Positions 24,640 through 44,520 of a stretch of 64,000 bases of DNA are shown here, piece after piece. Every line of letters starts with the position of its first letter. The first letter of the stretch is position 1. The DNA lies in NCBI GenBank assembly GCA_949152475.1, contig OX424561.1, positions 26,096,481 through 26,160,480 on the forward strand. The letters are read 5' to 3'. A program made the position numbers and the translations under genes. This stretch comes from Terebella lapidaria. Its lineage: Eukaryota; Annelida; Polychaeta; Terebellida; Terebellidae. The notes beneath the pieces are model-generated. The model saw nothing but the letters and a program-made list of their open reading frames with translations, was not told the origin of the DNA and made no database searches.

Positions 24640-27600
24640 CATTTAGTCCATACAGTTCCCATTCTGAAGGAGCAAGGTCACCAAACGAATTCCTTTGCAA
24701 TTATATGGAACCACATGATTTTGAAACTATGTTAAAGTCTATCAACGGCACGTCCTATTTTCATCTAAACTGTCGAAGCCTGTCTTCCAATTGGAATTCG
24801 TTTGAGGAACTTGTGAATCAGATGAATGGGGAAAAGCATGGTATTGATTTTATTGGAATCAGTGAGGTATTTAACTGTGAGAGGGATGAACGTCTTGTTT
24901 TACCTGGATATTGCAAGCTGATCACTCGTTGTCGCGAAGATGACAATAGAGGGGGTGTTGGACTGTTTGTGAAAAATAATGTCAATTTCAAAATTAGAAA
25001 TGACTTGAGCGTTTTTATACCCAATGTATACGAATCATTATTTATTGAGGTCATGAACAATTCCAACACACGGGCTAATAACATAGTTGGGGTTATATAC
25101 AGACCGAACACCCAGCCCAAAGCAGATATCGACATATTCTCCAACACAATACAAGAGGTAATGGACATAGTCAACATTGAACAAAAACATTGTTTACTAA
25201 TGGGAGATATGAATATAGATTTACTAAAATATAAAGCTCATGCAAAAACAACGGATTATGTTGATAATTTATTCTCTCACTCTTTCATGCCCGTAATAAC
25301 AAAACCGACAAGGATAAGCCATTAATCTGCAACACTTATTGACCATATGTATACTAACGAAAACAGTACTTCTAAATTAACATCAGGGATTATAATCACT
25401 GATGTAGCTGATCATTTCGCGACATTCTGTATCATTGAAGGTAAGCACAAACATAAAGGAAAACAAAGTTTTGAAAAACGAGTCATAACAGATATAACAA
25501 TTGAAGTCTTCAAAGAATATCTTAATAACACAAATTTCACACACATATACAATGAAACAAATCCAGATGACGCATACAGCAAGTTTCACGAATTATATAT
25601 GCAATCATTTAATAAAGCTTTTCCAATAAAATTAATTACTCCCAACAAAAGGTATAATAAAATAGAACCCTGGGTCACTGCAGGTATGATGAATTCTATG
25701 AGGAAAAAATCAAAACTGTTAATAAAAAAACTACAGCACCCAACCGATGAGAATACAACAAGATACAAAAGGTACATAAATATATACAACAAACTGAAAC
25801 ATATATTAAAAACAGACTACTTTAAACATATGATAAACCTAAATCAAAATAACATGAAAAGAACATGGCAATTACTTAGAAAAGCTCTTGGTAAACAAAA
25901 TAATAAATCTGGCTTTCCACAAACATTCATGATAAACAATACCCAAGTTTCTGATAAACAGGTCATAGCAAAAGAATTCAATAGTTATTTTGCAAGTATA
26001 GGTAAGAAAACAGGTGAAAATGTTCCCCAAACAAGCAAAAATTATTTGGAATATATGCCCAAACGAAACTTAAACAGTATATTCATTGAACCGATAGAAG
26101 AACACCAAGTTATAGAAATAGTAGAAAAACTAAAACCAAAAACTAGTACAGGACATGATGGTCTATCCTCGAAATTGATTAAACAAACTATCACGAACAT
26201 TCTGACACCACTAACATATATAATAAATAAATCACTTGAAACAGGAATTGTACCAAATGAACTGAAAATTGCTAAAGTAATCCCAATCTATAAAGCCTCT
26301 GATACTGACAAGTTGTCCAACTATCGGCCGGTCAGCTTGTTACCAGCATTTTCTAAAATATTAGAAAAAATTATGTTTAATAAAATTATTGGATTTTTCA
26401 ACAGTCAAAGTTTATTCTATAAACACCAATATGGTTTTCGTCCTAAACACAGCACAATACACCCGATTATACATCTACTAAATGCATGTGCTGAAGCTCA
26501 TAATTCTTCTCCGAAACAATTAACACTGTCCATTTTCTGTGACCTCTCTAAGGCCTTTGATGTGATAAATCATGACATATTATTGAGAAAACTAGAAATT
26601 TACGGCCTTAGGGGGGTTGCAAATCAATGGATAGAGAGCTATATGTCTGATAGAAAACAATTTGTCGAATTCGAAAATGTTAAATCAGATGTTGTTCCAA
26701 TAAAATGTGGTGTACCACAAGGGTCTATATTAGGACCACTTCTCTATCTTATATACGTGTATGTGAATGATATTCCTAACTCTACAGATGCCAGTATACT
26801 TTCATATGCTGATGATACTTCCCTGTTTATATCTCATAGTGATATCAATACTCTGTTTGATGAGGCTAATTCAGAAATTAATAAATTGTACAAATGGTTC
26901 TGTGCCAATAAACTATCATTAAATGCCAAAAAGACTAAATTTATTGTATTGAGAGCCCCGAACCAGAAATGCAATTTCCGCAATTTAAAGGTATTGATTA
27001 ATGGAATACCCTTGTCTCAAATTGGATCAGATTTTGAAGAGAAGAACACTAAATTTCTAGGCTTGATTATTGATGAAACTCTGTCGTGGAAGTATCACCT
27101 CATCCATGTAAACAACAAAATATCCAAAGCCCTATACCAAATTAAACAAGTAAAAAATCAATTAACAACCGAAAGCTTGATAACACTATATTATGCAATG
27201 GTACACCCATATATTACATATGGAATTACAGCGTGGGGAAATGCCACAGCCGCAAATTTAAACAGAACAAATATCTTACAAAAACGTACCATAAGAACTG
27301 TGCATAAAGTTAAATATAATAGTCACACTGAACCACTTTACAAAAGCTCCAATATACTGAAGGTAAATGATCAATACAAATATGAAGTTTGCATGTTCAT
27401 GCACGACTTTGCAATGTCTAAGTTACCTATATCATTTTCAAACGTCTACAAGTACAATCATGAAATTCAACAAACACATATTACTCGACAATCTAAGGAA
27501 TTATGTGAAAAAAGGTGCAATTCTAGTTTTGCAAAAAAACTTCCATTATATAATTTCCCTGTCATTTGGAATTCAATTGTACAGCAAATTGGCAATTATG

Positions 27601-28126
27601 ATTCCAAACATACTTTCAAAAAAGTGTTAAGAAATTATATGACGTCTTTCTACTCTTCAACCATAAAATGTACAAATGTTTTTTGTACAAGTTGTCGCAC
27701 TTGACTGATAGTTTGAATTGGTCTACACAGACCTTTTATTTCATTAGAGCCTGGTTATGGTCACGGTATGATGCATTCCTCTCCTCCTCTCCACTGGTGT
27801 TTCCTTGTCAGGCCGGGCAAGCCTTACAAATCAAAACTATCAACTCAACTTTAGTATTATTCATATCTATAATATAAATATTATACAGTAATATATTTAT
27901 ATTTGGTATATGTGTTTAGGTTGTTTTGTAAATGTTCACATTTTTTATTCCGAATTATGTTATTTTTTCTAAGGGACCAAATGGAAGACAGCAGATGCTA
28001 ATTTGGTACCCTTGTTTTCCATCAAACCCTGAAAATATTTGCACATATCTGTATATATATTGACTCGTACTGCTGATGTGAAAACGAAAATAAATTCTAT
28101 TCTAAAATTCTAAAATTCTATTCTAA
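24640..28126 (+). mobile_element. LINE (non-LTR retrotransposon), nearly intact ORF2
   Basis: Contains an endonuclease-reverse transcriptase reading frame (24705-27704), a 3' UTR, and an ATTCTA-type repetitive tail at about 28094-28126. No ORF1 is visible upstream, so the 5' end may be truncated near the 60-bp array. The tail and the C-terminal Cys cluster fit a Jockey/CR1-type LINE; the clade is inference. Confidence 0.88.
24705..27704 (+). pseudogene. LINE ORF2: APE endonuclease and reverse transcriptase, one internal stop
   Basis: A single frame of 1000 codons broken only by a TAA at 25323-25325, in the endonuclease just before SATLIDHMYTN. The APE endonuclease (residues about 15-245) shows FHLNCRSLSSNW, GISEVFN, GGVGLFV, VGVIYRPN, LMGDMNIDLL and DVADHFATF. 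The polymerase shows YRPVSLLPAFSKILEKI, QYGFRPKHSTIHPI, CDLSKAFDVINHDIL, GVPQGSILGPLLYLIY and the SYADDTSLF active site. A two-residue gain (YVYVNDIP) lies just before the active-site box. The C-terminus ends in a Cys-rich tail (CTNVFCTSC). It nicks target DNA and primes cDNA synthesis from RNA. With one stop and no frameshift, this copy is young. Confidence 0.9.
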
Positions 28127-34680: not shown

Positions 34681-35128
34681 TGGGTCTAATTATCAAGTAT
34701 TACTCAACTCCCATAAATGCACGATCACTGTAGTTGAAACAAAAAATGATAATATTACTTGGTTTCGGACCCCATCAAAGGATTAAATGCATTTGGCTAT
34801 TCAATACTCTCAAATCAGCTGAAAGGTAATGGCTGAACAGTGAAAGTCACGTTCGTGAGGCTCTCCTCAATTCTTCTCTCATGTGCATTACTTACGCATT
34901 ACTGGACAAACATTTCGGAATGTTTATGCAGGTAATTGGCCATGGATTAATATCGTGATTACTTCATGTGGATACCATATCAGAATCAGCCCTAATAGAT
35001 GAAGGATATTTCAAGTTTTTGCTTTCGATATGACCAGCCATTGGTGCTTTCCGTTTCGCACCAGTTCACATACCTGTGGGCCCTGTAGTCTACGTCACCG
35101 CTTTCTGCATTTGTTTACAACCGTGAAC
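34681..35128. other. 5' flank of the NADAR-fusion ORF
   Basis: No repeat or motif recognised. The reading frame is open back to 35030, but the residues upstream of the Met at 35129 do not look conserved. Confidence 0.35.
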
Positions 35129-36340
35129 ATGAGTGGTCCTGTACTGCGACAGAAAACACGCAACTCCGATGCCGATCAAGCTCCAGCCTGGGCAAAAGCA
35201 CTCAATGAGGAGACTATTGCAGCATTCAAAGGTGAACTCTCGTCGGCCATAGAAAAGTTGGACAGAAAATTCACCGAACTCTTAAAGCCTATCCAGGACG
35301 AGAATACGGCACTCCGCGAGGACGTTGATGGTTTACGAGCGGACGTGGACAAGCTTCGTGAAACTGTGAGTCTTCAACAAGGTATGATTGAGTATCTGCG
35401 ATCGACCACAAAAAGTAACAAAAATCGTCAGATACGAATGGAGTCATATTCAATGAGAGAGAATATCATCATATCCGGAATTCCCGACACAACAAATGAA
35501 ACCGAGTCTGATCTTCGATCAACACTGACGGACCTGTTCACCAATGATATGTCGGCTGAGATGTCTGATGTCACCATCGTACGCTGTCACAGACTTCGTA
35601 AATCTGCCGCTGAAACTGGTCCCAGGAAGGTCATTGTTCGATTCTCGACCCATCCGGGTAAGAAGGCGATAATGAAGTGTGCTCGGAATTTGAAAGATCA
35701 CGACCCACCCATCTTTATTAACGACCAACTACCAGCTGAACTCAATAGCCACCGAGGTACGTTGAGACCTGTCATGCAACTCGGTATCAATAATGGGAAA
35801 AAATGTACCCTCGTTCAGGGAAAACTCCTCGTCGATGGCAAGTTGTACACAGTGGACAACGTCAGGGATGTTCCGTTCGACATTTCAGATGTAGGTACAG
35901 AAAGAACTGATGAGTATGTCATGTTTAGTGGGAGATTGTCTCCCTTCAGCAACTTTTATACCCAGCCCAAACTGTTCACACTCGATGACATGTCATTCTG
36001 TAGTTCTGAACAATACTTTCAATACCACAAAGCCATGATCCACGAGGACTACGCCGTCGCCGCGGAAATCCTTGACAGCACTGATCCTGTGGCCATCAAA
36101 CATGCGGGGGACAGAGTCAAAGTTGGCGATGACTGGGTCAAGAGAGCCCCAGCGGTTATGAAAACAGGTGTCTTAGCGAAGTTTTCCCAGAACCCTGACC
36201 TATCTAAAATTCTCGTTGACTCAGGTTCCAGGTCCATCCAAGAAAGCAATCGCCACGACGAATTCTGGGGCACTGGTGTTTCTCTGAAGGACGTAAATGA
36301 TGACTGTGCAAGTAAATACATGACAGACTCAATGAACTAA
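35129..36340 (+). CDS. LINE-ORF1-like RNA-binding protein fused to a NADAR domain
   Basis: 403 residues if it starts at the Met of MSGPVLRQKTRNS (the frame is open from 35030). Residues 33-94 are a predicted coiled coil with heptad-like ENTALREDVDGLRADVDKLR. Residues about 106-200 match the RRM-like domain of LINE ORF1/Transposase_22 proteins (RENIIISGIPDTTNE, IVRCHRLRK, RKVIVRFS). A C-terminal nucleic-acid-binding extension follows (GKLLVDGKLYTVDNV). Residues about 264-387 are a NADAR domain with LSPFSNFY, SSEQYFQYHKAM, the Trp of GDDWVKRAPAVM, VLAKFSQNPDL and HDEFWGTG, so its conserved Glu and Trp are present. NADAR enzymes cleave N-glycosidic bonds of ADP-ribose-type or riboflavin-precursor substrates. 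No polymerase frame adjoins it. Its last 15 codons lie in a repeat also present at 36753. Confidence 0.88.
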   Translation: MSGPVLRQKTRNSDADQAPAWAKALNEETIAAFKGELSSAIEKLDRKFTELLKPIQDENTALREDVDGLRADVDKLRETVSLQQGMIEYLRSTTKSNKNRQIRMESYSMRENIIISGIPDTTNETESDLRSTLTDLFTNDMSAEMSDVTIVRCHRLRKSAAETGPRKVIVRFSTHPGKKAIMKCARNLKDHDPPIFINDQLPAELNSHRGTLRPVMQLGINNGKKCTLVQGKLLVDGKLYTVDNVRDVPFDISDVGTERTDEYVMFSGRLSPFSNFYTQPKLFTLDDMSFCSSEQYFQYHKAMIHEDYAVAAEILDSTDPVAIKHAGDRVKVGDDWVKRAPAVMKTGVLAKFSQNPDLSKILVDSGSRSIQESNRHDEFWGTGVSLKDVNDDCASKYMTDSMN

Positions 36341-37983
36341 CACATTTGGAGATTGATGCTTTATTGAGCTACACTAAAACTATGTATGATAAAACAAAAA
36401 CATATGTATGATGAAAAAACATTCTGTGTATGTATAAAAGATACATGTATACAATAAGAGAAATATACTGAGACCACAAGGGTGGGTGGGTGGGTAATTT
36501 GATGCGAATAGGGTGGCGTCCGAGTGGCTGAATAAATTCCCGAGAACTAGGGCCGAATTTATAAGGCAGGGAACAAACAAACAATTAGTAAACATGTACA
36601 TAAACTGTGCGACTGAGCTAAGCGCCAAGTTACTGGCCCGGAACAATGAAATACATGAATTGGTTATTTACAACAGCTACGGGGAATGCACGTTGTTTAC
36701 AGTGGCGATCAAAACACTAACATTTACTCAATACAATAGGATTGTATAACATTAAATGATGACTGTGCAAGTAAATACATGACAGACTCAATAAAATAAC
36801 ACATTTGGAGATTGATGCTTTATTGAGCTACACTAAAACTATGTATGATAAAACAAAAACATATGTATGATGAAAAAACATTCCAAGAATCCCCTGGTAG
36901 GAAAATAAGAGTAGAGTAACCTACATACCTTGAACATACTGTTTTACAAATGAAGCTTTTTTACCCGTCTCCAAAAATAAATAAGACTGATAGGCCTGAG
37001 ACTTCCAATCTCCTAACATTTGAATGACGTCGGATGGAATGCCCACGCTGAGAGACCAAGAGGCCGCACCACGACGGAAACTGTGTCCAGAGAACAGACG
37101 GTCATCATAACCTAACATGGAACGGTAACTTTTTAAGTTGCGGACAAATGTTTGAAGGGAGAGTGAGACATATCCTGTAGGGGTGGTACCATAAACGGAG
37201 GACCTTGGAGATCAGACCCTTGAGTAATGACGAAGGCTGTAAGTACTGCCGTAACTGGACATGAAACTGACCCAGGTATGGTAACCAGTGGAACCTCGAT
37301 GCAGCGTTGATGTAACTGAATGGTCTTAGAATGTCTGATTTTTATGACAACACCCCAAGAGGCTGGAGTAAAATCACACCGACGCAAGTGTTTAGACGGG
37401 TCGAACGATGATACTGGTTGCAAAACACTGGATTTACGGAAAAAGCCAAAGAACATGGTTAAACATACGGCCCAAAAGATACGATCCTTAGGGGAGTGCA
37501 GGTCTAGAACCGAGTGAATTTGGCGAAGGATACCAGGGGTTATAGGCAACTTCTTATTGACGTGGGAAGGAATCTCTCTGTTAATACCACGAATGAGAGA
37601 CTTTAAGAACCAGTTGTCAGACATAGGGTTGGGATGACTAGATTCTATGTGCAGTAACCGGACAGATGACAAGTAACGGGTTATGGACTTAGGAGAGAGC
37701 CGCTTAGACAAATGAACCACATACCTAGCTAAATAAACATGTACATACTGTGCGACTGAGCTAAGCGCCAAGTTACTGGCCCGGAACAATGAAATACACA
37801 ATTTGTTTGTTTGAATGAGTTTACAACAGGAGTATACTGACTGAGGACATAAGTGACAAGTTACTGGCCCGGAACAATGAATTACATGAATTGGTTATTT
37901 ACAACAGCTACGGGGAATGCACGTTGTTTACAGTGGCGAGCAAAACACTAACATTTACTCAATACAATAGGATTGTATAACAT
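36294..37983 (-). mobile_element. Tyrosine-recombinase element with split direct repeats
   Basis: Two repeats are interleaved. Repeat A: 37983-37736 and 36752-36591. Repeat B: 36883-36753 and 36424-36294. Read on the minus strand the order is A1, recombinase, B1, A2, spacer, B2, with B1 abutting A2. This A1-internal-B1A2-B2 layout is the split direct repeat arrangement of Ngaro/PAT-type recombinase retroelements. No reverse transcriptase or RNase H is present, so the element is either non-autonomous, deleted, or a different kind of recombinase element (Crypton-like). A1 carries an internal gain of about 60 bp relative to A2. B1 contains AATAAA on the minus strand, a plausible poly(A) signal for the recombinase. 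The NADAR ORF ends inside B2. Confidence 0.7.
36921..37801 (-). pseudogene. Tyrosine recombinase (one frameshift)
   Basis: The N-terminal part (37801-37133) reads LSPKSITRYLSSVRLLHIES, LKSLIRGINREIP, FFGFFRKSSVL (catalytic Arg) and IRHSKTIQL (catalytic Lys). A one-base shift near 37150 moves to the frame of 37118-36921. That frame carries GHSFRRGAASW (His-x-x-Arg), LGDWKSQAYQSYL (Trp and nucleophile Tyr) and ends at YVQGM. All six catalytic positions are visible, split by the frameshift. The last residues sit at CAAG/GTATGTAGG, a good splice donor, with TTTTCCTACCAG 24 bases further on, so a very short intron is possible. The recombinase type occurs in Crypton and Ngaro-like animal elements; I cannot place it further. 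Confidence 0.82.
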
Positions 37984-38400
37984 CAAAAGATCGCGACGAC
38001 CACAGCCAATTCAACGGAAAGAACTTGATGGGCAGAATACTTGAGGACATCAGGGAACAGCTAAAGTAGTGACCAATTCCATGAACTCTAGTAAGATCTT
38101 GCATTTATATTACACTTTGTTATTTCTAACAAACTGTTACTATGTGCACACTGTGATTGTGATTTTTTTCTTCTTTTTTTCACCATACATAAATGCATAT
38201 ATGATGAGTAGGGTAAATACAAGAACTAGGTGACCATTGGTGTGAAAATATTCTTGGGAATAACATCTTGCACATGTTTGTTGGCCAATATGCGATATTA
38301 ACCACCATGCACAAAGTATCATGTTTGTCGTAACTATACTCCCACCTTATATTGTTTGTTACATACTTTATATATGTGTGTACATGTATGTAAACATTAT
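37984..38400. other. Unassigned AT-rich sequence
   Basis: Right flank of the recombinase element. No ORF or known repeat. Confidence 0.35.
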
Positions 38401-38401
38401 A

Positions 38402-38543
38402 CAAATATTGACTTTTGGTGAAGTGAATACGTGAAAATATGTACCTCTCGCAAAAGACATATTCACCGAGCTTGCGAGGTGAATATGTCTTTGGCGAGAG
38501 GTACATATTTTCACGTATTCACCGAAACCAAAAGTTAATATTT
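38402..38543. repeat. Fold-back hairpin (about 142 bp)
   Basis: Arms of about 65-70 bp run from ACTTTTGGTGAAGTGAATAC to ATTCACCGAGC and pair with the returning sequence ending CACCGAAACCAAAAGT. The flanking CAAATATT/AATATTTG extends the stem. Words such as GCGAGAGGTACATA recur at 38812-38910. Frames on both strands here are mirror images of one another and are not genes. Confidence 0.85.
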
Positions 38544-38811
38544 GTTTTATTATATAATACATGTGAAAAGTTCATGCAAATACTGAAGCAATGTTTATGT
38601 ATGACGTGGATTTATGAGATAAACATAATACATCTAAACCTATCATTTGTTGATTAGAATAAATACTGCGCCAGTCACGCCTTTAGATTTCAGTTTGATG
38701 TCAATATTTCAGGAATACTATAAACAAAAGAGGAATGATTTCTGAAACAAGCTCATTCGACTCACTATATCACTGGATACGCGATATAACATGCAAGAAA
38801 AACCATTTGAG

Positions 38812-38910
38812 TTGCACTTTGGCGAGAGGTACATATATGTGATATGGACCGATCGGTGAATATCAAAAAAACTTCACCGGCTGGTCCGGTGAATATGTAC
38901 TTTTATGCAA
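38812..38910. repeat. Second, diverged fold-back related to 38402-38543
   Basis: GGCGAGAGGTACATATATG and GGTGAATATGTACTTTT are imperfect inverted arms around TTCACCGGCTGGTCCGGTGAA. It appears to be an older member of the same fold-back family. Confidence 0.65.
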
Positions 38911-38984
38911 AGACACGTGACCTGCTTTTAACCAATGACAACGTCGAGATTCTTAGTAGTATAAATAATATCTGTTACACTCTA

Positions 38985-39090
38985 TGTGTATGTATATGTA
39001 TATGCATATAGGTATATGTGTGTGTGTATATGCATGTATATGCGTGTATACATGTCGGTTTGAGTATGTATACGTATATATATATATACA
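38985..39090. repeat. TA/TG microsatellite
   Basis: Alternating TATATG, TGTGTG and TATATA runs. Nothing else seen from 38911 to 39329. Confidence 0.75.
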
Positions 39091-39329
39091 ATTAATGATG
39101 AGGAAAATTACATATCAGCTGTTTTGTCGTGTTGTTTTGGTTGTGGTAACGTGACTCTCCCACGCAGTCTGCAACTGTAGCCTAGTTGAAAACAACTCAA
39201 TACATAGTAAGTCGTCCATGCATGTAACCACCTAAGTAGAGTCCATAGTAAGATTGGTAACTGTGTGCGTGGGCGGGTCACGTGCCCATTAATCCATCGG
39301 GTCAATGAACTCTGGGACAATTTGTTTTT

Positions 39330-40063
39330 AGGTTACCGAACCATGGGTCCGATAAACTATTGCCGTCACGTTGTGTCCTGCGTCCATCTAGCCGTCCGTC
39401 TGTCCATCCGGCGTGAACAACCTTAAGTCTACGGGCGAATTTTTTTCTGAAATTTTGCACAAAAATACCTAAATTATATCAAGAAGGGGGTAGGGGGTAT
39501 TTTTTAGTTTTTGCATCTTGCACTTTTTTCAAAAGGGCGGCCGTTTAGAAATTGGCACTTTCAAATGGGAAGACATATATGGCGACTTGTGTGGTGACCT
39601 TGAATATGACCTTCGATGGCATTAAAAGGTCAAAACCTTTTTGGGTTAAAAAAAAAAGTGCCCAGATTTGCCTCTACAGATGAAATGCTTGCAGCTTATG
39701 TTTGCATTATGAACATATAGGAAGACATATATGGCACAACTAATATTGACCTCGAATTGACGTGAGATGAACTTGAATGCCAAATGTCTGATTCGGAATG
39801 TGTAATTGGCCTGAGCGGCCTAAACGCTACACCTAGATATATCTTTGTATTATGAACATATAGAAAATCAAATGCCGCGCACATACATGTACGTGTAATA
39901 CTAGTATTGACATTGAAGTTCCCACGGATGACCTTGATTGGTAAATCTCAAGGTCATATGTTCACACTGATAACCTTGATTGATAAATCTCCGGGTATGT
40001 TCCCGGCCAATGCTGCTCTGGCGAAACCAAAATTATCCGGCGACCTATCTTAGCCTTTGGGCT
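39330..40063 (-). mobile_element. Hairpin-ended element, short inverted copy (H5)
   Basis: Starts AGGTTACCGAACCATGGGTC, with the CGTCACGTTG-type right-end module, and ends at the AGCCTTTGGGCT palindrome. It is followed by a T run and preceded by TTTTT. The core has only single GACCTTGAA/AAGGTCA words, not a full array. The frame 39962-40384 on the minus strand spans its edge and is not supported. Confidence 0.65.
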
Positions 40064-40334
40064 TTTTTTAATTATTCGGCATATATGTATTCTAAAGTTT
40101 TCTGCTTCACTGAGCACATGGGAGGGATTGGGGATAAGTTTCGGGTAACTTTCAGTTATTAACTCAGTCATAGTGACATGTATTTGATATGCTTTAAGTG
40201 CTGGGGAGGGATTGTTACATCGTGTTTTGTTCACACCACGCCTGCCGCCCGCCTCAGTGTACAGGAACATCTTATCGATGTCTACAGATAACATAGTTGA
40301 CTGAGACGAGGTCTCGACTGATGACAGATTCAAT

Positions 40335-43300
40335 TTGGCTTCGCTATATGATTCGCAAAACACTAGCGAAGATTTTGAGAACAACTTTAAATTATTTGAC
40401 AGTAATAATCATGGTTACTATGAACCAAACCAAGTACCGACACTGATAGAAGATAAATTTTCATCCAAGCATGGCTCTGCACATGTGCAATCATATTTTC
40501 ACCTAAATTGTAGAGGATTATCTTCTAATTGGGACAAATTTCACAATCTCATATGTGATATGCACACAAGCAAATTCTCTTTCGACTGTATTGGAGTTAG
40601 TGAAGTTTTTCGATGTGATCGGGATGATCGTCTTAAGCTCACTGGATATCACAATATTATAACTCGTTGTCGGGAATTTCTTACGGCTTCAGAGGGGGTG
40701 TCGGTCTATTCATAAAAGACACGATAAATTTTAAAATCCGAGATGATCTGTCTGTTTTCATCCCGCATGTCTATGAGTCATTGTTCGTTGAGATTATTCA
40801 AAAAATCGGTAAGCACATAGTTGTTGGTGTTGTCTATCGTCCCAATTCCTTTCCCCGTGCTGACGTAGATATTTTCAGTGCCACACTGCTTGAAGCGCTG
40901 GATCATGTCACGAATGAAAACAAAACGGGTGTAATTATGGGTGATATGAATGTGGATCTGTTAAAATATGGTTCCCATGTTAAGACAGATAATTACATCG
41001 ATGGTATTTTCGCAAGAGGGTTTGTTCCTCGAATCATCAGACCAACTAGAGTTACACACACATCTGCTACTCTACTGGATCATATTCTTACTAATGACAT
41101 TACTGTTAATGCCCATTCAGGAATTGTTATCAATGATATTGCAAACCATTTTGGTGTTTTCTTTTCATCATTAACAAAACATGAGCGAAGCGAACCTCAA
41201 CTAAAATATTCTCGCTCATTCGCTGATGAAAATATTTTAAAGTTCAATACAGAACTAAGTTGTGTTGACTTTTCACCAATATTCCTAGCAGACTGCCCGG
41301 ATGATGCCTATATGAAACTAAACGAAATAATAAAAGTACCATTCAATACTTCATCTCCTGTAAAATGTACAAATGCCAAAAATAGACAAATAAAGCGCGA
41401 ACCCTGGATGACAGACGGACTGATGATTTCTTCTCGCAATTTATCGAAATTATTCCTTAAAAAATTACACAAACCAACACCAAAAAACATTGCCTGTTAT
41501 AAAACGCACTTGAACATTTTCAATAAGGCTAAACGCAAAGCCAAAATTTCGTACTACAAGACTGTTATCGAAAATAATAAACAAAATAATAAACAGATTT
41601 GAAAAGTACTCAGAAAGGCTATAGGCAAGGAAAATGATAAGTCAGAGTATCCACAGTCATATAATATTGATAACCATCAGGTAAGCAATAAAGATGATAT
41701 AGCAAGTGCCTTCAATAATTTGTTTGCTAATATTGGCTACCAGTCAATCATAACGTGCCCATCTCGAATAGGAATTTCACAGACTATATGCCCAATCATA
41801 ATGTAAATTCCATGTTTCTAGATCCGATTCTTCCGTCTGACATACTGCATGCACATTGCGAATAAACTGAAACCCAAAACAAGTTATGGTGCTGACGGCA
41901 TTTCCACAAAATTACTTACAAAAATAATAGATATAATTGTGCTTCCTCTTGCCCATATAATTAATTTGACATTTTCAACCGGATTTTTCCCGTCGGAACT
42001 CAAACGTGCGAAGGTCATACCTATATTCAAATCTGGCGACCCATGTTCCCTAAACAATTATAGGCCGATTAGTTTATTGTCATCAGCTTCCAAAATATTT
42101 GAAAGGATCATGTACAACAAAATCATGAATTTTTTGAACTCAAATAATATACTATATCGTCATCAATATGGCTTCAGAGCGAAGCATTCAACTATTCATC
42201 CTATAATTCACCTATTGAATCAATGTGCGGAATCCAGTAATTCATCCCCATCTAAACTGACCTTGGCTGCAGTCTGTGACCTAAGTAAAGCCTTTGATAC
42301 CATAAGCACCGATATTCTGCTGTACAAATTAAACATATATGGGATTCGTGTGCTAGCTAATGAATGGATAAAAAGTTATTTAACAGGTAGAAGTCAATTT
42401 GTTGACTTTGACTCGCATTTATCTGACAGTCTACCAATTAGGTGTGGAGTTCCACAGGGATCTATCCTAGGGCCCTTATTATTTCTTATTTATATTAATG
42501 ATATTAATCACAGCACGGAAGAAAATATCTTATCATTTGCAGACGACACAACTCTCGTGCTATCTGACGACGACCCGACTAAATTATTCACTCGAGCAAA
42601 CATAAGTCTCGATAAACTCTTTAACTGGTTCTGTGCAAATAAACTTTCTTTAAATGCTTCCAAAACTCAATATATGGTCATTCAACCAAGCGGAATACAT
42701 CGCCGGATGATCAATAACAACAATTTGGTAATCAATGGCGTTACTTTGACACGCACAAATGCATGTAATTTTTTAGGCATAATGATTGACGAATCTCTCT
42801 CGTGGAAACAACAAGTTGCCAATATAAATAAGAAAGTTTCGAGAGCATTATTTGCTATGAAACAATTGAAAATTTTCCTTCCCCAAGAAAGCCTGCTCAC
42901 TTTATATTATGCTTTGATCCATCCCCATTTAACTTATGGTATACTTGCCTGGGGAAATGCCAGTCCGGCGGTATTACAAACAAGAAAATGCAGCAAACTG
43001 CGGAAGACGACATTAGACCTTGAGCATATCATCAGCACCACGACAGCTGAATATATCTTACACAACGTTACCCCCCCCCCCCCCCAAAAAAAGAGAGAAA
43101 GAAAGAAAGCCATAATTTCATCCCCTATGTGATTCCAATTCATTTCCGTATACTAGGATGAAAAACATGGCCTAATCATATTACTAATAAGTAAACATTT
43201 ATTTTAAAATCGATCAATGGAACAGATACGCCTGCTAAAATGATATGGAACCTCATTAAAATATCCTCAAAACATTGGAAACTATGAGGAATATCTGCAT

Positions 43301-44228
43301 CTGGTATCATCAGATATAGCCTAACACATGCCTTTACTTGGCAAATTAAAATACCAGTTAAGAATAAAAAGACTTCGCAATCCAGCACAGAACACCAGCT
43401 TAATTGTCATGTTATAAAATACGTCAAATTACGGTAAATGTAGCCGCGGCATCGCAGACGATTCGCTGTGTTTACTTCATAACGCCAAAAAAGTCCACAC
43501 GCAGATGCCCACATGCATGTATGCATACACGAATTGCTGAACAGAAATTGTGTTCCAAAATACGCGTGATTGTGGTAAAATTTGCTTTGCATTCTGGGAA
43601 CGTCAATTTCCATCGGCTCCGCCATTTTGGGACGTTTTTAGATAATTTGAACATTTACGTAATTTTCTCAAACCTAGCACATCGATTCATGCCTCATATA
43701 TCTGTGCAATAGTCAAAGTTTCCCATCAATTCGAGAGATTTTATGTCAACGACGAAGAAAATCCTCATTTGAAGTAAGTTTACATGCCAAAACGTGCGTC
43801 GATAGGTTGGCATGAAACCTCCATGAAAAAGTCAGCACATAGACATGTAGAGGGTTGGGGGCTTCGCCCCCAACGCTCTAATGTCAAAAACTGTACTTAT
43901 GCAAAAACGGGCCATGAGAACGATACATATTAAACAATACAATAGCCACACTGATCCACTCTTCAAGCGGTGTGGCATTCTGAAAGTAACTGACCTGCAT
44001 CAGCTCCAGATTATGCTTTTTATGTATGACTATATAAATGAAAATCTACCCAAATCTTTCGATAACGTGTTCAGTTTAAATATTAATGTTCAAACTTATT
44101 ATATCACGCGACAGTCCCAGTTATTCAATATACCCAGAACTAAATCTCGTTTTGTGGATAAACTCCCCCCTTTTCACTTCCCCGTAGTATTTAACAGATA
44201 CTCATCAAATCTGAAACTGCCTTGTTAA
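40335..44228 (+). pseudogene. LINE ORF2 pseudogene: endonuclease and reverse transcriptase
   Basis: The endonuclease begins in frame 40335-40715 (SYFHLNCRGLSSNWDKFHNL, FDCIGVSEVF) and shifts near 40690 to the frame of 40667-41602 (GGVGLFIKD, GVVYRPNSF, IMGDMNVDLL, TSATLLDHILTN). A TGA at 41600 stands where the other copy has Trp of RTWQLLRK. A further shift between 41700 and 41849 precedes the polymerase (41849-43000): YRPISLLSSASKIFERIMY, QYGFRAKHSTIHPI, CDLSKAFDTIS, GVPQGSILGPLLFLIYIND, SFADDTTLV. The terminal domain resumes after an insertion at 43881-44228 (QKRAMRTIHIKQYNSHTDPL, YYITRQSQLF). Three lesions plus the insertion make it inactive. Confidence 0.87.
42985..43878. other. Insertion inside the second LINE
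   Basis: Interrupts the polymerase C-terminus after GNASPAVLQ and ends just before SKTVLMQKRAMR. It contains a C homopolymer (about 43071-43085), a GAAAGAAAG stretch, and at its right edge the perfect hairpin GTTGGGGGCTTCGCCCCCAAC split as arms GTTGGGGGC and GCCCCCAAC (43854-43874). I recognise no family in it and could not define a target duplication. Confidence 0.6.
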
Positions 44229-44265
44229 AAAAATGCAGTCAAGCACACCGTCAAATCCACTTATA

Positions 44266-44350
44266 CACCTGGGATTGTCACAGTTCACAGCAGATTGATA
44301 TGCATTCAGAATGCATATCAATCTGCTGTGAACTGTGACAATCCCAGGTG
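44266..44350. repeat. Perfect palindrome, 42-bp arms, 1-bp centre
   Basis: 44266-44307 (CACCTGGGATTG... to ...TGCATTC) is the exact reverse complement of 44309-44350. It lies about 40 bp beyond the LINE ORF2 stop. It could form a cruciform in DNA or a very stable RNA hairpin. A young fold-back MITE or an assembly fold-back artefact are alternatives. Confidence 0.9.
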
Positions 44351-44520
44351 CTCTGACTGTCGCTAAAACTTATCATCTACATCTCCTTTGAATTCGTCTT
44401 TCGAGTTGATGTTATTTGTATATAGTGCATGATTCCATTGTCTCGAGCAGGTATCTATTTGTAATAAATACCTCCCACAGAGGTATCTATTTCCAATAAA
44501 TACCTGTCCCAGGTATTGAA

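Follow-up and report, generated by a model that had tools for sequence, protein, structure and literature searches.

Domain composition of the protein

The stretch 35129-36340 of the window (i.e., the whole 64,000 nucleotides of Terebella lapidaria DNA analysed) translates into 403 open codons, in agreement with the uninterrupted frame described by a sequence-only reading. By its profile and structure matches, the encoded protein is a type II LINE ORF1 protein fused to a YbiA-type NADAR, and the fusion is real. The NADAR/YbiA profile PF08719 matches residues 271-387 with 90.7 bits (E 1.6e-25; cut-off 35.1) and TIGR02464 also matches the protein (E 1e-24). Two solved NADARs are matched as well, i.e., 8bau (1.2e-11) and YbiA 2b3w (5.3e-7).

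The preceding part resembles L1 ORF1p: residues 69-205 match 2ykp with E 4.5e-5 when the single sequence is used. With a profile of 32 family ORF1s the values become 2.5e-34 for 8bau and 2.2e-14 for 2ykp, the L1 ORF1p chains falling on profile positions 57-219. The likeness to Transposase_22/L1 ORF1 holds for these PDB chains but not for the Pfam profile, whose score of 18.8 bits is lower than its cut-off of 22.4 bits. The coiled coil is assigned from the L1 ORF1p match and from generic Pfam matches. The window protein has the coiled coil, the L1-type RRM and the CTD of type II LINE ORF1 proteins, and the domain plan first proposed for it (an L1-ORF1-like RNA chaperone joined to a NADAR enzyme) was right. 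The features of the locus are collected in Table 1.

Table 1. Features of the NADAR-bearing LINE copy and of its insertion (window coordinates)
Feature	Position	Strand	Basis
LINE copy, about 6.4 kb of element split by later insertions	34829..44426	+	blastn against C15, C1 and C12 copies
ORF1, LINE-derived part, residues 1-391	35129..36301	+	translation; alignment to L002-L004
Probable coiled coil, residues 33-105	35225..35443	+	generic coiled-coil Pfam matches only; position by analogy to L1 ORF1p
L1-ORF1p-type RRM (110-187) and CTD (about 188-255)	35456..35893	+	PF02994 18.8 bits, below cut-off; PDB L1 ORF1p 4.5e-5 (single), 2.2e-14 (profile)
NADAR domain without C-terminal end, residues 264-389	35918..36295	+	PF08719 1.6e-25; 8bau 1.2e-11
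Insertion composed of two pieces of one element in head-to-tail order (borders accurate to a few bases)	36302..37986	.	direct repeats; sister-copy alignment
Remains of tyrosine-recombinase-like ORF of the inserted element, frame broken	36945..37801	-	motif by eye
Displaced NADAR C-terminal end and true ORF1 stop	37987..38069	+	alignment to near copies
ORF2 with broken frame, coding for endonuclease and reverse transcriptase (approximate start)	40203..42980	+	matching C15 ORF2 domains
ORF2 C-terminal part, end approximate	43886..44363	+	blastn against C15 copy

An insertion in the window copy

A genome search found three copies that are 97-98% identical to the window protein, the match covering residues 1-391 only. 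The frames of these near copies continue past residue 391 and end with ...KDRDDHSQFNGKNLMGRILEDIREQLK*; the same stretch is found in the window at 37987-38069, i.e., behind an insertion of about 1.7 kb that separates the NADAR codons from their C-terminal end. The last residues of the 403-aa frame (about 12) are thus formed by insert sequence, and the true stop is displaced. The window copy lacks the C-terminal G-N-G-R positions of NADAR, which 81-82 of the 82 other copies keep. The domain had looked complete and the ORF intact from the window alone; the sister-copy alignment and the missing G-N-G-R positions rule out that the 403-aa ORF is an intact protein. That the window ORF1 reads on through the insertion border is due to chance, and the window copy itself can hardly be functional. 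The open frame had been attributed to youth or selection; this is wrong for a disrupted copy, and selection is seen in the family.

The inserted element carries direct repeats (36294-36424/36753-36883 and 36619-36760/37850-37991). Its recombinase-like ORF is located in the second of the two pieces, with an open stretch at 37133-37801 and, beyond it (about 36945-37130), the motif GHSFRRGAA...LGDWKSQAY, recognised by eye when translated. A Pfam scan of the open piece 37133-37801 gave no match. We presume a likeness to the recombinases of Cryptons. The recombinase-like ORF and ORF1-NADAR do not form one element, the former having been inserted within the latter.

The LINE element and its sister copies

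Comparison by blastn with the copy on contig C15 recovers the window element in five pieces (34829-36301, 37984-38400, 38962-42980, 43886-44264 and 44306-44426) with 96.7-98.6% identity. Its 5' end, at 34825-34829, is common to three near copies (within 4 bases). The C15 copy has two open ORFs, an ORF1 of 416 aa with a NADAR of 118.2 bits over profile positions 11-163 and an ORF2 (EN-RT) of 1075 aa. This ORF2 contains PF03372 (endonuclease) and PF00078 (RT), is continuous with ORF1 and is matched by the window. The element is thus a LINE, i.e., an ORF2 with endonuclease and RT lies downstream in one and the same element. In the window, ORF2 is disrupted by frame changes and insertions, one of which (42981-43885) separates its C-terminal part from the rest.

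Two other features of the window must be mentioned. A 45-bp near-perfect inverted repeat with a 10-bp gap (38423-38522) lies within the insertion 38401-38961 between the ORFs. A second ORF2 of the same kind (kind I, see below) is present at 24705-27704, with an RT ORF of 785 aa (PF00078 9.7e-32; 56% identical in RT) preceded by a 206-aa ORF that is endonuclease-like by eye and has no Pfam match.

A large family with three kinds of ORF2

The genome searched comprises 761.6 Mb in 438 contigs. The window protein gave at least 103 matches among the best candidates scored. At least 150 NADAR places, all over the Pfam cut-off, were counted (the best 150 of 973 candidates). In each of the 20 places fetched with their flanks, a long ORF ends in NADAR; one of these 20, L052, is a chance frame (see below). 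Among 32 aligned ORF1s of the family, identity to the first sequence falls as low as 24%.

Kinds of ORF2 were assigned by blastp from those located behind eight NADAR copies, L052 included. NADAR-ORF1 stands before three kinds, one of them L1/Tx1-like: (i) kind I is that of the window family (L002, L005, L047 and, more distantly, L049); (ii) kind II is found in L033, L048 and L052; (iii) kind III is found in L044. Kind III is classified as L1/Tx1-like because it is close to human L1 ORF2p (218 bits for L054 vs. 64.7 at best for kind I). The match of the window family to R2 is 51.2 bits, vs. 81 for L1/Tx1-like L054. The RT scores of the window family (64.7 with L1 ORF2p, 51.2 with R2) speak against its membership in Tx1, in a comparison with L1 and R2 references.

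Among the matches listed, a NADAR-ORF1 lies less than 9 kb upstream on the same strand for 17 of 104 ORF2s of kind I, 14 of 41 of kind II and 22 of 55 of kind III. On the contrary, the controls with the listed ORF2s (wrong strand, 200-kb shift) both gave 0. Conversely, a listed ORF2 is found downstream of at least 38 of the 150 NADAR places. These pairing counts are lower bounds, since the best candidates were scored per search and many LINE copies are 5'-truncated.

The recurrence of the fusion also bears on a trivial explanation of the locus, i.e., a LINE fragment read by chance in frame with an adjoining host NADAR gene. The genome does contain a chance frame, albeit of a different kind (L052, where a Gypsy protease-RT runs into a 5'-truncated NADAR LINE). 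However, the fusion is found in many dispersed copies with ORF2 behind, which refutes read-through for the window; its probability is close to nil.

Some copies are of interest by themselves. L052 (G000:C8:827400-830200) is an 808-aa frame with Gypsy protease and RT running into NADAR. Its reading as a Gypsy PR-RT-NADAR polyprotein was rejected, a 5'-truncated NADAR LINE being inserted into the Gypsy frame; such a frame is a trap for automatic annotation. L044/L054 (G000:C1:96351900-96358200) is an L1/Tx1-like LINE with three ORFs, i.e., ORF1-NADAR, a SGNH/GDSL esterase and an EN-RT ORF2 that is split in that copy. The esterase ORF is separate and has 225 aa (PF13472 1.2e-15 on 166 aa). Three ORF2s (L057, L058 and L232) bear an N-terminal ...G(D)(I/V)xxNPGP motif, weaker in L053 (...GNIELHPGP). 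We take this motif to be like a 2A peptide; it suggests co-translational cleavage of the ORF2s that bear it.

Conservation of catalytic residues and selection

Conservation was studied on 83 NADAR stretches, i.e., 38 NADAR-only loci, 44 of 50 ORF1 loci and the window; the six ORF1 loci left out were disrupted, truncated or redundant. Nearly all come from best-scoring matches, thus the set is biased toward good copies. None of the 83 stretches contains a stop. The equivalents of P. nicotianae E43, E125, D130, W89 and W133 are kept in 82, 83, 83, 82 and 80 of them, respectively; L210 is the single copy without E43. The conserved Glu and Trp first noticed in the window copy are indeed present there, and the equivalents of E125, E43 and K50 are all kept in it. 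Neither the absence of a significant NADAR profile match nor the loss of the catalytic Glu, both named by the sequence-only reading as evidence against itself, is observed: the profile match is strong, and the YbiA-type Glu is found in 83 of 83 copies and the second Glu in 82.

The position equivalent to K50 is more variable: Lys in 67 copies, Arg in 2 and Gln, Leu or Met in 14 (the replaced copies being L044, L050, L051, L214-L217, L221, L223-L228, L230 and L231). Ten of the 14 copies lacking Lys or Arg have a kind III ORF2 within 9 kb. Kind III also follows three Lys-bearing copies among those checked, thus the loss of K50 occurs within kind III and not across all of it. The E. coli C7 NADAR requires the corresponding Lys, which coordinates phosphate; Arg at this position keeps the activity in vitro, and E88 and D171 matter (PMC11543638). 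Because of this essential Lys, part of the kind III NADARs may be altered or inactive.

The same 14 copies give some weight to the idea that NADAR has no catalytic function and serves for binding or packaging, holding nucleic acid or ADP-ribose. A mere binder should nevertheless let the two Glu drift, and both E43 and E125 are kept in all 14 copies without the lysine, as they are in 82 and 83 of the 83 copies. We consider a purely binding role improbable and keep an enzyme as the preferred reading.

The dN/dS ratio over NADAR was calculated by the Nei-Gojobori method for 36 pairs. It is 0.08 at dS 0.9 between the L033 kind and the L034/L042 kind and 0.16 at dS 1.2 between the L012 kind and the L015 kind. 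A third contrast (L210 vs. the L035 kind) gives 0.34 at dS 0.17 and rests on one decaying copy. Values near 1 throughout, the other outcome named beforehand as adverse, are thus absent from the two best contrasts and from the third. For 13 cross-group pairs (dS 1.27-1.5) the ratio is 0.41-0.58; these are probably saturated and are not relied on. Near-identical pairs have too few changes for dN/dS, one RRM ratio reaching 1.49. When L033 and L034 are compared part by part, the ratio is 0.17 in the coiled coil and 0.08 in both RRM-CTD and NADAR. NADAR is under purifying selection in this LINE family.

Origin of the NADAR module

In a tree of 67 NADARs, one branch splits the 28 LINE NADARs from 39 bacterial and viral ones with a support of 97/94. 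In the same tree, 21 LINE NADARs (window group, kind III group, L047-L049 and L052) are separated with 99/96 from the L033 group of seven together with the bacterial and viral rows. Because this second split joins the L033 group with the bacterial and viral rows, one NADAR origin holds only if the root of the tree is on the bacterial/viral side. It must be noticed that the outgroup consists of bacterial and viral rows found with L033-group seeds, no host animal NADAR being included. A single uptake of NADAR by LINEs is therefore allowed by the tree, not proved. L033-type NADARs have up to 46% identity to plasmid relatives, 47% to bacterial genome relatives and 48% to viral-contig relatives.

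An exchange of ORF1/NADAR between kinds of ORF2 was also considered. Although the tree sets L048/L052 apart from L033, also of kind II, a topology that joins them passes the AU test (p-AU 0.22); the data thus prove neither exchange nor common descent.

UPF0029 at the place of NADAR

A search with the coiled-coil/RRM/CTD part only also retrieved ORF1s with long frames that are absent from the listed NADAR matches. Twelve were fetched, and UPF0029 was found at the C-terminal end of all ten scanned (E 5.5e-16 to 8e-26), several of these ten being copies of one family. UPF0029 is present at 150 places at least in the genome (the best 150 of 381 candidates), not necessarily all in ORF1s. These ORF1s (L182-L193, e.g., G000:C12:34211900-34213800) are type II-like and have UPF0029 (IMPACT/YigZ) instead of NADAR. 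One of them, L182, precedes an open EN-RT-like ORF2 of 1156 aa (L232), which is kind II-like by eye.

IMPACT, an inhibitor of GCN2, contains UPF0029, and its binding to GCN1 occurs via an RWD domain (PMC5054600). The Pfam scan of the UPF0029-ORF1s showed no RWD domain; since this GCN1-binding domain is absent from the Pfam matches, inhibition of GCN2 is not claimed for them. No report of UPF0029 with a retrotransposon or a LINE ORF1 was found in the open-licence literature.

Proposed function and comparison with known systems

L1 ORF1p coats its own element RNA. By analogy, the coiled-coil/RRM/CTD part of working family members would coat the element RNA, and this coating would place the NADAR enzyme on the element RNP. 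NADAR would there strip ADP-ribose from guanines of the element RNA or single-stranded cDNA and so undo a modification made by host or other ADP-ribosyltransferases. The best explanation of the fusion is that NADAR on LINE ORF1p removes ADP-ribose from element RNA or cDNA; we infer activity, substrate and benefit from sequence comparison, and we give this explanation about an even chance of being correct. In such a case NADAR-ORF1 would have a counter-defence role.

Removal of ADP-ribose from guanine by NADARs has been demonstrated in vitro on RNA and ssDNA (PMC11833690, PMC11543638, PMC11125620). A search of the genome for a host guanine ADP-ribosyltransferase (PF22596, Scabin-like) gave 0 matches; control genomes were likewise silent, so this result decides nothing.

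NADAR might instead act on small molecules (free ADP-ribose derivatives, NAD-based alarm signals or NAD caps), its fusion to ORF1 serving mainly for co-expression. The conserved catalytic residues fit such an activity, and for phage NADARs, soluble ADP-ribose derivatives have been proposed as the main substrate (PMC9503650). Those of eukaryotic RNA viruses, on the contrary, are argued in the same source to target mainly macromolecules, and in the 32 aligned ORF1s NADAR is joined to the RNA-binding part, never being an ORF of its own. Small molecules are thus rather unlikely as the main substrate, and removal of ADP-ribose from element nucleic acid is preferred.

The closest known case is that of oyster: the ORF1 of several Crassostrea gigas Tx1 LINEs holds a YbiA-family NADAR, which perhaps processes RNA intermediates (PMC12477816). 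The likeness is a LINE ORF1 protein with a YbiA-family NADAR; the difference, in a comparison by description only, is that the window ORF2 is probably not L1/Tx1-like (64.7 bits at best to human L1 ORF2p). The Gypsy elements of Ectocarpus, with a YbiA-family NADAR in Pol (PMC12477816), are likewise retroelements that have acquired NADAR. Among the open-licence literature matches listed, no other report of NADAR in a retroelement was found. The type II ORF1 of L1/CR1/L2/R1 LINEs has the same coiled coil, one RRM and CTD; the additional C-terminal NADAR or UPF0029 is outside the five ORF1 types in the relevant part of PMC4120745, where ORF1 types and modular exchange are described. With E. coli YbiA (2b3w) and the P. 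nicotianae NADAR (8bau) the family shares a domain-wide sequence match, the YbiA-type Glu and the ADP-ribose-binding residues; these are stand-alone enzymes, whereas here the domain is fused to an RNA-binding element protein. What is new here is (i) NADAR in other LINE lineages, (ii) the evidence of selection and (iii) the swapped UPF0029 module. The only animal NADAR named in the part of PMC11125620 concerned is the C. elegans SNA-3, which takes part in trans-splicing; according to PMC11833690, NADAR is absent from vertebrates.

A broader scheme is put forward tentatively, as possible although doubtful: the C-terminal end of ORF1 would be a slot for accessory enzymes, NADAR having been taken up once and serving three LINE lineages as an ADP-ribose-erasing counter-defence, and UPF0029 would be a second module that may act on another stress response. 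The swap of UPF0029 at the same place suggests a role of ORF1 as a platform for accessory functions. The physiological uses of NADARs are poorly understood. A large LINE family that keeps NADAR under purifying selection suggests that retrotransposons are under pressure from the ADP-ribosylation of nucleic acids, and it offers a direct way to test this.
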